Assembly (NCBI GenBank): GCA_038741495.1
Contig: JAVYKX010000002.1
Coordinates: 124,001 to 188,000 of the forward strand
DNA from: Thermofilum sp.
GTDB lineage: Archaea; Thermoproteota; Thermoprotei; Thermofilales; Thermofilaceae
Direction: 5' to 3'
DNA length: 64,000 bases
Shown here: in pieces, positions 11,647 through 59,424 of the stretch
Numbering within the stretch: position 1 is the stretch's first letter
Layout: each line of letters opens with the position of its first letter
The notes under the pieces: generated by a model
What the model saw: the letters and a program-made list of their open reading frames with translations, nothing else
Told to the model about the DNA's origin: nothing
Databases searched by the model: none
Translations under genes and position numbers: made by a program

Positions 11647-12000
11647 GTGTTCGTGAAGATCGTGGTGCGGGTAATGGACACTGCGCATAAAGGATGTAAA
11701 GTTCGCGTAGAGGTAATTATCTCGAGCAGCGATTCTTCCTTTCTGGATTCTCTCTACGCTGCTTTTCTCCCGGAGTCGGGCGCTACTCCTAGGTACAGAG
11801 CAGAGATCTCTATCGCCAGAGCTCCCGAAGCTTTTCTCGTGAATCTGCTCAGCGAGGATATCTCATCGTTGAGGGCATCTCTTAACACAATCTTAAGGGC
11901 GCTGGGCGCCATTTTTTCGGTCTCGGAGAGGTATTTGCCAGCTCAGCAGGCCGCGGCGCAGGCTGAAGAAAACCGCGCCCCTCACCGCGCTGCGCAGTAG
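11647..12000 (+). CDS. pcc1: KEOPS complex subunit Pcc1
   Basis: 117 residues from a GTG abutting the Brix stop. Core features are a two-helix, three-strand pattern ending with ISSLRASLNTILRALGAIFSV, which fits the Pcc1 dimerisation helix. KEOPS installs t6A at tRNA position 37; Pcc1 binds tRNA and contacts Kae1. The last 20 residues are Ala/Gln-rich and run straight into the GC-rich decayed transposon, so the C-terminal tail may have been altered by that insertion. A second Pcc1-like gene is at 55357. Confidence 0.75.
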   Translation: MFVKIVVRVMDTAHKGCKVRVEVIISSSDSSFLDSLYAAFLPESGATPRYRAEISIARAPEAFLVNLLSEDISSLRASLNTILRALGAIFSVSERYLPAQQAAAQAEENRAPHRAAQ

Positions 12001-12009
12001 CCTCCGCGC

Positions 12010-12205
12010 GCCAACATCCAAACCCCACTCGCCGATAAACTACGCGCCTGGCTCCGCGAGCATCCGAGTGTCTTAGCGCCGAGTTTCGAGCGCCAGAGCC
12101 CCCCCTTCCCGGGACTCTGCCGGCGACGGCGCTGTGCCCGGGGGCTCCGCGCGCGGGATCGAGGGTCCACCCCCGCTACCAACCGGGAGGCCCCCCTCCG
12201 GGGAT
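12010..12205 (+). pseudogene. decayed C-terminus of a TnpB-family gene
   Basis: Reading frame +1 from 12010 gives PLADKLRAWLREHP then SVLAPSFERQSPPFPG. This aligns with TLADTLKGWLKAHP and ALARNYNNPAGPASRD in the intact TnpB at 24370-25827, and later REAPLRGCAPATGR aligns with its tail. No zinc finger or RuvC part remains, so only about the last 60 codons survive. It is followed directly by the same structured right end as the intact element. The stretch is much GC-richer than its neighbours. Confidence 0.8.
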
Positions 12206-12364
12206 GCGCCCCGGCGACGGGGCGCTGAAAAGAGAGGGTTAGGCCACCGCCGGAGAGGCGGACAGCCGACCCCATGACCCGCCCCGGCCATCCCAAGCGG
12301 AAGCCGCGGGGCGGGCCCCAGAGGCCCGCAACGGCCGAAGGGGGAGATGAACACCGGCGCGGGA
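12206..12364 (+). mobile_element. TnpB-type right end / candidate guide-RNA scaffold, copy A
   Basis: Begins with the hairpin GCGCCCC-ggcgac-GGGGCGC and continues through ATGACCCGCCCCGG, where the tnpB stop overlaps in the intact copy. A long stem CCCGCCCCG/CGGGGCGGG is closed over an unrelated loop, and the copy ends gaacaccggcgcggga. The same order occurs at 25765-25932. The stem is kept while the loop differs from the intact copy, which suggests selection for RNA structure. The promoter for the downstream KaiC-like gene starts about 15 bases after it. Confidence 0.75.
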
Positions 12365-12378
12365 CAGCACTGAGGGCA

Positions 12379-12390
12379 CCTTTTTATACG
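12379..12390 (+). promoter_or_regulatory. TATA element of the KaiC-like gene
   Basis: cctttttatacg lies about 40 bases before ATG 12426, with a purine-rich gaggt leader close to the start. Confidence 0.55.
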
Positions 12391-12425
12391 ACAAGTTTCT
12401 AAGTTATAGAAACAGAGGTCAGTGT

Positions 12426-24243: not shown

Positions 24244-24302
24244 GCTGCAAAGGCTGTGTAGAGGGTGAGCCAGCCTCCCCTCAAGCGCCGGCACCACTCT
24301 CC

Positions 24303-24319
24303 CGGGGGCGACGCCCCCG
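24303..24319. repeat. strong hairpin in the left part of the tnpB unit
   Basis: CGGGGGC-gac-GCCCCCG is a perfect inverted repeat. It lies between the divergent island gene and the tnpB promoter. IS200/IS605-type elements carry subterminal hairpins, so this could be the left-end structure. Confidence 0.4.
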
Positions 24320-24333
24320 CGTCCCTTGCGGCC

Positions 24334-24344
24334 ATAAATAGGGT
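24334..24344 (+). promoter_or_regulatory. tnpB promoter
   Basis: cataaataggg lies about 26-36 bases before ATG 24370 in otherwise GC-rich DNA. This spacing supports 24370 rather than an earlier GTG as the tnpB start. Confidence 0.6.
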
Positions 24345-24369
24345 TTGGGCAAGTGAAGCTGGGGAGCGG

Positions 24370-25827
24370 ATGGGGGCCAGCACGGCGAGGGGAGCCCCCG
24401 AGAAGAGCGAGGCCCCTGGGGAGGGCTTCAGGGTCTTCAGGGTGGAGTTGAACAGGAGAGTGAGGGGAGAGCTCGCGAAGCTCCACCAGCGCCTCGTACA
24501 GAGGGATCCTTCGCTGCCGAAGAACGCGTTCCGCTACCACGAGAGCTGGGAAAACGAGGATGCGAACATGCGGGAGATGCGGGAGCAGGCGGGGAAGCGA
24601 TCCCCGCCGAAGCGTAGAGCGGCGTACTACCTGCTGGCTAAGGTCGTCAAGGATGGAAAGAGGATCCACGGCAGCAAAGGTGCTTCAGTAATCGTCGACC
24701 TCGGCAGGAGCGAGCTGCGGATCCCCTGCGCTGGGATCCGGATCCCCCTGAAGCCAGGGCTGGTCAAGGCGCTGGAGGGGGAGCTCCGGCTCGCTCCTAA
24801 GCCGGAGTTCGCCGTCCAGCTGACGTGCCGGGGCAGGCTGCGCATCGTCGCTTTCAGGAGCCCGCCGAAGTGGTGGCTCTACAGGGAGGAGTGCGCGGAC
24901 TTCGACGCGGTCCGGCTCGGGCCGCCCGTCAGGGTGGTGGGGGTGGACGTGAACAGCGTGTACGGCATTGCCGCCGTGGTCTTCGACCTCACCGAGGGCG
25001 GCGTGAGGGTGCCGAAGTCTCCCTTCCGCCTGCAGCCGCCCAACGACGCCCTCTACCTGGCGGAGGCGAGCGTGCTCCGGAAGATCGCCCAGGGCCTGCC
25101 GCCGGAACCGCCGGACAACGCCACGGAGGAGGAGCTCCAGCTCTGGCAGTGGGCCCTGGAGAGGGTGAAGCGGCTATCCTCCAGGGTTGGGGCGCTGACC
25201 ACTGAGAGGGCTGACAGGCTCCGCTGCCAGCTGGAGCGGGCGGCGAGGCTGGCGAGGAGGCGGTGGGCCCGGAAGCTGCTGGGGGAGCTGAGGCAGCTCA
25301 TCCGCGGGGCGAACGGCAGGGCAGTAATCGCTATCGACGCCCCCGACCCTGAGAGCCTCAGGAACAGCAAGCTGCAGAAGACCTACCTGCACGTGACGAA
25401 ACACATCAAGAACCTTTGCCGGTACGAGGGGGCGCTCTACCGGAGGGTGAGGGCTTCCGGCAGGGCGTGCCCCCTCTGCGGCAGGTGGTGCGAGGAGGTC
25501 GCTCACCGCTACTACAAGTGCAGCCACTGTAGCATTGTCTTCGACAGGGATTACGGTGGAGCTTTCAACGCAGCCCTCGAAGCCCTACCACCGACGCTCG
25601 CCGACACGCTGAAGGGGTGGCTCAAAGCCCACCCCAAAGCGCTCGCAAGGAACTACAACAACCCTGCAGGCCCCGCTTCCCGGGACCCCCGCCCGGACGT
25701 CGAGCCCGTTCGGGGGGCGCTCCCGGGGGGCCGCGTGCGCGACGAGGGGGAGAGCAGCCGGGAGGCGCTCCGGCGACGGGGCGCTGAAAGGCGCGAGCAG
25801 GCCGCCCTTAAGCGGCCGCCCCCATGA
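24370..25827 (+). CDS. tnpB: TnpB-family RNA-guided nuclease
   Basis: I choose ATG 24370 (485 residues) because a TATA box lies 26-36 bases upstream; a GTG at 24265 falls inside repeat DNA. The RuvC-I motif is VVGVDVNSVYG with Asp193. RuvC-II is VIAIDAPDPES with Asp323 where most TnpBs have Glu. A zinc finger uses C367, C370, C384 and C387. RuvC-III is DRDYGGAFNAAL (Asp392/394). Family members cut DNA using a guide RNA made from the element's right end, and here the stop codon lies within that right end. No TnpA or serine recombinase is in the window. The Glu-to-Asp change may lower activity. Confidence 0.85.
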   Translation: MGASTARGAPEKSEAPGEGFRVFRVELNRRVRGELAKLHQRLVQRDPSLPKNAFRYHESWENEDANMREMREQAGKRSPPKRRAAYYLLAKVVKDGKRIHGSKGASVIVDLGRSELRIPCAGIRIPLKPGLVKALEGELRLAPKPEFAVQLTCRGRLRIVAFRSPPKWWLYREECADFDAVRLGPPVRVVGVDVNSVYGIAAVVFDLTEGGVRVPKSPFRLQPPNDALYLAEASVLRKIAQGLPPEPPDNATEEELQLWQWALERVKRLSSRVGALTTERADRLRCQLERAARLARRRWARKLLGELRQLIRGANGRAVIAIDAPDPESLRNSKLQKTYLHVTKHIKNLCRYEGALYRRVRASGRACPLCGRWCEEVAHRYYKCSHCSIVFDRDYGGAFNAALEALPPTLADTLKGWLKAHPKALARNYNNPAGPASRDPRPDVEPVRGALPGGRVRDEGESSREALRRRGAERREQAALKRPPP

Positions 25828-25932
25828 CCCGCCCCGGTCGTCCACGGCCTCGGCTCTGCTCGGGGCTGGGGAGGCCGAGGGGCGGGCCTGGAGGCTTAAG
25901 CCCGTGAAGGGGGATGAGCACCGGCGCGGAAC
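25765..25932 (+). ncRNA. candidate guide RNA (reRNA/omega-RNA) and right end of tnpB, copy B
   Basis: It begins with GCGCTCC-ggcgac-GGGGCGC, passes the tnpB stop at ATGACCCGCCCCGG, forms the stem CCCGCCCC/GGGGCGGG with an inner CCTCGG/CCGAGG, and ends CACCGGCGCGGAAC at 25932. In TnpB systems the RNA overlaps the 3' end of the gene and the guide is read from the DNA just beyond. The presumptive guide would begin gtatcagctggttggc, whose first nine bases also occur at the left edge of the island. Expression is not shown. Confidence 0.6.
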
Positions 25933-28770: not shown

Positions 28771-28906
28771 ATAGGGGGTGAGCGCCCCCTCGAGGGCCTT
28801 GTTGAGCTCCTCGTCGAAGCTCAGCCCCTCCCGCCTCGCCAGCTCCCCCAGCCTCACCCTCAGCTCCCTCATACCCCCGCTGCTCGCGAGCCCCTCCATG
28901 CCTTCA
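28771..28906 (-). CDS. small gene 2 of the repeated bicistron, copy 2
   Basis: MEGLASSGGMRELRVRLGEL then an Arg/Glu-rich helix ending EELNKALEGALTPYHQ, about 45 residues from the ATG near 28901. Its start follows closely the TGA of a frame ending GGWLTVYAAFATG. It is homologous to the gene at 23484-23696 in the first 20 residues but diverges afterwards. The last codons fall in the left direct repeat. Helical and charged; function unknown. Confidence 0.4.
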
Positions 28907-28937
28907 CCCCGTGGCGAAAGCCGCGTACACGGTGAGC

Positions 28938-29033
28938 CACCCGCCCCGGTCGTCCACGGCCAAGAGCCGGGGAGGCCGCGGGGCGGGCCCCGAGGCCCAA
29001 GCCGGTGAAGGGAGATGAGCACCGGCGCGGAAC
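28938..29033 (+). ncRNA. solo right end / candidate guide-RNA scaffold, copy C
   Basis: Contains acccgccccggtcgtccacg, nearly identical to copy B, the closing strand ggggcgggcc, and the terminus gagcaccggcgcggaac. The inner loop is shorter than in B but the outer stem is intact. No TnpB coding remains here, so any RNA would have to use the nuclease made at 24370. The presumptive guide starts attactggtgctgc, and its first ten bases are repeated at the left edge of this insertion. Confidence 0.55.
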
Positions 29034-59117: not shown

Positions 59118-59424
59118 CTCTCGTCAACCCCCTATTTGCTAACGCTCTGCACTTTTATATACTCGCTGACCCCGTCTCAAAGTTTCTCCAACACCCTCCG
59201 AGTTTTTCCTCGACAAAGCCCTCCAGCGGCGCTGCGCGGAAGAGAAGGTATAGAATGCCTATTCTCGATCGAGTTCGTGGCGCTCACCTCAATCTACCCG
59301 GCCTGCTACCGAATCGGGAGGCTGGAGAGCGGGCCTAGTGGTCAAGCGCGAGGAAGGATGAGCGACCGGCGCGGAAGCGAAGCGCAGCGTTTTTACTCAG
59401 ATTATACGCCTCGATGCTGACTCT
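59118..59424. other. intergenic region holding right-end copy D
   Basis: The left part has no recognisable gene. Copy D of the TnpB right end occupies about 59313-59377. TATA-like cagattatacg at about 59397-59407 sits before the ZPR1 gene. Confidence 0.5.
59313..59377 (+). mobile_element. solo TnpB-type right-end fragment, copy D
   Basis: gggaggctggagagcgggcc, then gaaggatgagcgaccggcgcggaag, which matches the last part of copies B and C with substitutions and one inserted base. The 5' strand of the large stem is not recognisable. The most diverged plus-strand copy, so probably older. Confidence 0.5.

Follow-up and report, generated by a model that had tools for sequence, protein, structure and literature searches.

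A solo TnpB-less right end flanked by pcc1 and a KaiC-domain gene in Thermofilum sp., a probable passive remnant of a TnpB-only transposon family

In ISDra2, the reRNA (omegaRNA) consists of a structured scaffold that overlaps the 3′ end of tnpB and extends to the end of the element, followed by a guide taken from the flank (PMC8612924, PMC10097598). Haloarchaeal sotRNAs (RF02656 and RF02657), which are sense RNAs from the 3′ ends of archaeal tnpB genes, are regarded as omegaRNA as well (PMC12558985). Elements devoid of TnpB have also been described: the PATEs of Haloquadratum are terminal-only IS605 derivatives with fused termini and without TnpB, attributed to repeat-mediated deletion of the core, and HqIRS71 retains some of the sequence coding for the TnpB C-terminus (PMC3119063). 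The locus analysed here, whose host belongs to a different archaeal lineage, resembles the PATEs in that there is no transposase gene, the TnpB core is missing and a repeat lies at the junction. With a probability of roughly 80%, we interpret it as a truncated member of a TnpB-only transposon family that has lost its TnpB, is passive and keeps a scaffold left behind by deletion. The locus adds one more remnant to an already known kind.

The solo copy lies within a window of 64,000 nucleotides (C2:124001-188000) from the 1.6 Mb, four-contig genome of Thermofilum sp. (G000); feature coordinates given below are window positions, and the features of the solo copy are on the + strand. The whole insertion spans 11938-12365, reaching left of the coordinates first given (12010-12364), and sits between pcc1 (KEOPS Pcc1) and the gene for a KaiC-domain ATPase, two genes by which the window can be recognised as archaeal. 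It is absent, including its 11938-12035 part, from the pcc1-kaiC gap of the same-genus genomes compared; this gap measures about 120 bp in the closest of them (G002) versus about 500 bp in G000, and the promoter region of the KaiC-domain gene is common to both genomes. By homology, the left fragment of the insertion (11938-12035) comes from the region upstream of TnpB in intact copies, a minus-strand small-ORF region, with 85% identity to copies C3:8.5k and C1:427k and 79% identity to the segment upstream of TnpB in C1:473k. The remainder (12043-12365) shares 88% identity with the 3′-terminal part of copy C4:28k, whose TnpB is intact (518 aa). The insertion provides the Pcc1 ORF with its final ~20 residues (11928-12000), the pcc1 stop codon being at 12000, and at the other side it ends about 15 bp short of the TATA-like box in front of the KaiC-domain gene (12363-12391).

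What is left of TnpB is a C-terminal remnant, LADKLRAWLREHPSVLAPSFERQS (12028-12099), in frame but without a start, which aligns with the C-terminal LAERLRAWLREHPSVLAPSFEHQS of the TnpB (518 aa) encoded by C4:28k and lies in the pcc1 frame, past the pcc1 stop codon. An earlier note on this DNA had recognised a TnpB C-terminus in front of the right end, and the in-frame fragment is indeed real, but about 25 codons rather than about 60 can be recognised; beyond ~12100 the reading frame varies among intact copies. The note had further considered that the protein-coding part had decayed while the RNA was kept, and this does not hold. Compared with the intact sibling C4:28k, identity is about 93% in the stub (over ~58 nt), 94.5% in 12101-12192 and 92% in 12193-12365, and such like values for the stub, the middle part and the right end rule out differential decay. 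The TnpB of the solo copy was lost by deletion, not by gradual decay, and because the protein part was removed in this way, the contrast between a decayed protein and a retained RNA is void here. Since the junction falls in CTCGCCGA (at ~12028-12035), a microhomology that intact copies have both in the small-ORF region and in the 3′-terminal part of tnpB and that is thus common to the two joined segments, a repeat-mediated deletion can be proposed, for which this short repeat was apparently used. The junction of the mini-copy at 28840-29033 follows this pattern too, in that case with ACCCGCCCC. In a sister genome, copy G006 C30 carries TnpB residues 1-74 fused to residues 451-481, which is a plain internal deletion. 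At the locus studied here, a deletion, probably acting through the direct repeat, fused the upstream piece to the final ~25 tnpB codons. The right end stayed complete and in place between pcc1 and the KaiC-domain gene, and its persistence would be due mainly to the deletion being recent rather than to a known use.

The right end behind the stub is complete, in agreement with the earlier note. The sequence shared by copies with and without TnpB begins at 12100 and runs to ~12362-12365, the solo copy terminating in ...GGCGCGG at 12362, and the segment 12100-12365 is a putative omegaRNA (reRNA) scaffold. At its 5′ side, hairpin 0 (12108-12142) is formed by CCCGGG/CCCGGG arms around an inner hairpin with a GCGA tetraloop, and is the counterpart of a 5′ hairpin that covaries strongly in sister genomes. 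Next comes the motif CCGCGCGCGG (12147-12156), conserved in sister genomes and with potential for a pseudoknot-like pairing with the 3′-terminal GGCGCGG (cf. PMC10097598); CCGCGC (12147-12152) would be able to pair with GCGCGG (12357-12362), both sides being nearly invariant and GC-repetitive. Hairpin 1 (12206-12225) is an 8-bp stem with a GNRA loop, GCGCCCCG-GCGA-CGGGGCGC, and hairpin 2 (12242-12267; GGC..CCGCC-GGAGA-GGCGG..GCC) has kept its stems with changes in its loop and internal loop. Hairpin 3 (12278-12315), the stem that had been singled out earlier, is present in the solo copy, with CCCGCCCC at 12278-12285 and GGGGCGGG at 12308-12315 around an inner TCC/GGA hairpin; throughout the right end, loops and linkers vary and stems hold. 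Hairpin 4 (GGCC/GGCC; 12323-12336) precedes the 3′ tail GATGAACACCGGCGCGG (12346-12362), which marks the element end and is nearly invariant in right-end copies, the same motif occurring as GATGnGnCAGGCGCGG in the sister genomes. The adjoining flank (12363-12385), which passes into the promoter (TATA-like) of the KaiC-domain gene, would be the guide if an RNA is made.

Folded as a single strand, the segment 12193-12365 has a z-score of -4.05, and none of 200 shuffles was as good. The region has a G+C content of 75-80%, which eases pairing, and GC-rich control windows reach z -3.2, so that one might think of chance GC-rich inverted repeats with no element involved. The likelihood of this is negligible: 22 genomic places match the DNA of the solo copy, with E-values as low as 1e-110 once the self-match is set aside, homologs exist in another genus and the insertion has a boundary when compared with relatives. 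Chance structure is refuted by the homologous copies.

Evidence that the right end corresponds to an RNA comes from the sister genomes G001 and G006, both of which have a scaffold of this kind that ends in a similar tail (for example GATGAGCCAGGCGCGG). In their 5′ hairpin, one position is seen as A-T, G-C, T-A and C-G, and among 13 distinct arm pairs 80% of the cells are paired, with 17 both-side changes, as compared with maxima of 76% paired and 14 both-side changes in 5000 shuffles, a null that ignores relatedness. Across species, hairpin 1 has kept a GCGA or GCAA loop with its stem replaced, in rows that were selected for being paired; inside the genome, pair counts for this hairpin gave no covariation. 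The GNRA loops together with the covariation argue that the scaffold is an RNA, as the earlier note had supposed from its structured appearance. The outcome was different for the CCCGCCCC/GGGGCGGG stem itself, for which covariation across more copies had been put forward as the check: it is nearly invariant, with 96% of the cells paired and no compensatory change in 15 in-genome copies. Two both-side-changed cells in a wider set were discarded as artefacts of C3:8.5k and C1:427k, in which the 5′ half is not right end, and RNAalifold on the full alignment, to which truncated copies add gaps, missed the stem and returned only an invariant alternative pairing.

The scaffold family is very probably the scaffold of a TnpB guide RNA (omegaRNA), an assignment based on comparison of sequences: its position, the overlap with tnpB, the stop at the element boundary and the variable flank match what is described for reRNA/omegaRNA (PMC8612924, PMC10097598). 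The scaffold overlaps the tnpB 3′ end in intact siblings, and the solo copy keeps a TnpB 3′ stub; conserved structure with compensatory changes is a property of the scaffold family and not of the CCCGCCCC/GGGGCGGG stem; and the boundary ...GGCGCGG is followed by flanks that differ at nearly all sites. A long-range contact between the 3′-terminal scaffold bases and the 5′ part, like that of the ISDra2 reRNA, is conceivable. There are differences, however. At ~264 nt the right-end scaffold exceeds the 116 nt of the ISDra2 one, to which no sequence relation was seen, the solo copy has no tnpB of its own, no transposase was found in the genome, and the RNA is putative here. Unlike the sotRNAs, the right-end family has no Rfam match, either at gathering scores or as a relevant hit at E up to 10, RF02656 and RF02657 being unmatched, and its expression here is hypothetical.

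Our survey by covariance model and BLAST yielded about 21 right ends in G000, six with TnpB and 15 without. The former lie directly 3′ of an intact TnpB ORF that runs into the right end. TnpB-less right ends account for 11 of the 24 assessable ones in G006 and three of 10 in G001; four further right ends are present in G012, a genome of another genus, and the covariance-model search, at this threshold, covered 15 more genomes of the family and gave none there. When TnpB and the right-end tail were searched in outside collections, no true relatives were among the entries checked, the tail query of 17 bases being too short and its matches falling mostly in GC-rich bacteria. Within the window, a TnpB-bearing full copy is found at 24246-25932 (+), with its TnpB ORF at 24265-25827 and its right end reaching 25932, and at 59286-59377 there is a degenerate sequence that weakly resembles a right end (28.6 bits) and has GACCGGCGCGG at its end. 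At C3:1896 and C3:3768 of G000, an inverted right-end pair has the identical flanking (guide) sequence GGCGTCTAGGCTCGG. The tail variant GATGTGCC occurred only at TnpB-less right ends in all assessable cases, representing about three independent loci (G006 C2:42350, C2:45615 and C24:118124; G001 1590825 and 1594420), whereas TnpB-bearing copies under the same tail pattern show GATGAG or GATGACG. Another TnpB-less element, at C1:397k of G000, is composed of a left end, an opposite-strand ORF of 204 aa and a right end, and a homolog of this ORF adjoins a right end in another genus (G012 C8:52.5k); a sliding-clamp-like C-terminus suspected by eye was rejected, there being no Pfam or PDB sequence match.

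One could also imagine that the solo copy is a mobile, non-autonomous PATE- or MITE-like element, in which a transposase acting in trans would recognise the right end as a hairpin in DNA and so account for its conservation. Two TnpB-less layouts each occur at two sites with coinciding right boundaries, namely at C3:8.5k and C1:427k (88% identity over 418 bp) and at C2:8.7k and C2:81.5k (90% over 561 bp), and TnpB-less derivatives may therefore have been mobile in the past. Furthermore, a second TnpB-less copy in the window, a mini-element of 194 bp (28840-29033, +) in which the left-end hairpin is fused to the right end through a common ACCCGCCCC, carries both end hairpins. This mini-element has the near-terminal palindromes at both ends that characterise PATEs; no match to the left-end hairpin was found near the solo copy (11938-12365), which makes present movement of the solo copy unlikely. 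Searches of the genome for the Y1 TnpA of IS200/IS605 (PF01797) and the serine recombinase TnpA of IS607 (PF00239) returned no hits, with positive controls, and since neither enzyme was found the elements are considered TnpB-only. GNRA loops, moreover, favor an RNA over single-stranded DNA. We find this mobile-element explanation very improbable.

Whether the solo copy is maintained as an RNA is a separate matter. It could be a stand-alone guide RNA, made by read-through from pcc1, processed by a TnpB encoded elsewhere in the genome and acting in trans, with the kaiC-promoter flank as guide; its role might be, for instance, the marking or repression of that site. The scaffold is complete, its hairpins are intact and fold well (z -4.05), the position 3′ of a co-oriented gene resembles that of an omegaRNA after tnpB, and the same genome offers potential partners in its six intact TnpB ORFs, whose right ends are related, which counts against a passive copy. 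Nevertheless, the right end is no better conserved than the TnpB stub, and orthologous solo right ends in the sister genomes diverge as their flanks do: in the three that are common to G001 and G006, 10 of ~599 sites differ (1.7%), compared with 88 of ~6900 (1.3%) in the upstream flanks, so that these shared-site pairs give no sign of purifying selection, although with low power as the genomes are ~99% identical. Several solo copies are structurally degraded, the fold z of TnpB-less copies ranging from about -4 (well folded) to about 0 or above (structureless) and overlapping the range of TnpB-bearing copies, and expression of the locus is hypothetical. We therefore judge a stand-alone guide RNA unlikely at this site. 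The single point in favor of constraint is that nearly all changes on the branch of the solo copy are in loops, linkers and bulges, with no pair clearly broken, but this branch also spans the time when TnpB was present; the TnpB-bearing C4:28k has a broken pair in hairpin 1. Left-end-only remnants look rarer than TnpB-less right ends, the left end being shorter and harder to find, and such an excess might hint at right-end retention, contrary to a passive interpretation. On the whole, the evidence says that there is no selection on the RNA after the loss of TnpB, or not yet, and the earlier suggestion of an RNA selected in place of the protein is not upheld. We regard the solo copy as most likely a non-autonomous remnant that is passive.

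The TnpB proteins of the family have a peculiarity of their own. In the clade comprising the TnpB encoded at 24265-25827 and 16 relatives, an Asp replaces the usual Glu of RuvC-II (D358 in 17 of 17 proteins), and in the G012 TnpB the RuvC-I Asp is changed to Ser. From the residues, this clade is possibly an active-site variant, and the replacement leaves room for an altered nuclease activity, which would suit a guide-RNA role. One might go further and envisage that the many dispersed TnpB-less right ends are stand-alone guide RNAs that are transcribed as part of host operons and used in trans by a few RuvC-II-Asp TnpBs, which would then act as site-specific binders or regulators and not as transposon-maintenance nucleases, but we regard this as quite improbable.

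The solo copy illustrates how TnpB elements lose the nuclease yet leave a complete guide-RNA scaffold behind, and in this genome TnpB-less right ends make up about two thirds of the copies. The scaffold represents an RNA family that is missing from Rfam and has clear covariation in the sister genomes. If some of these scaffolds are transcribed, the intact TnpBs in the cell would load host-flank guides in trans.
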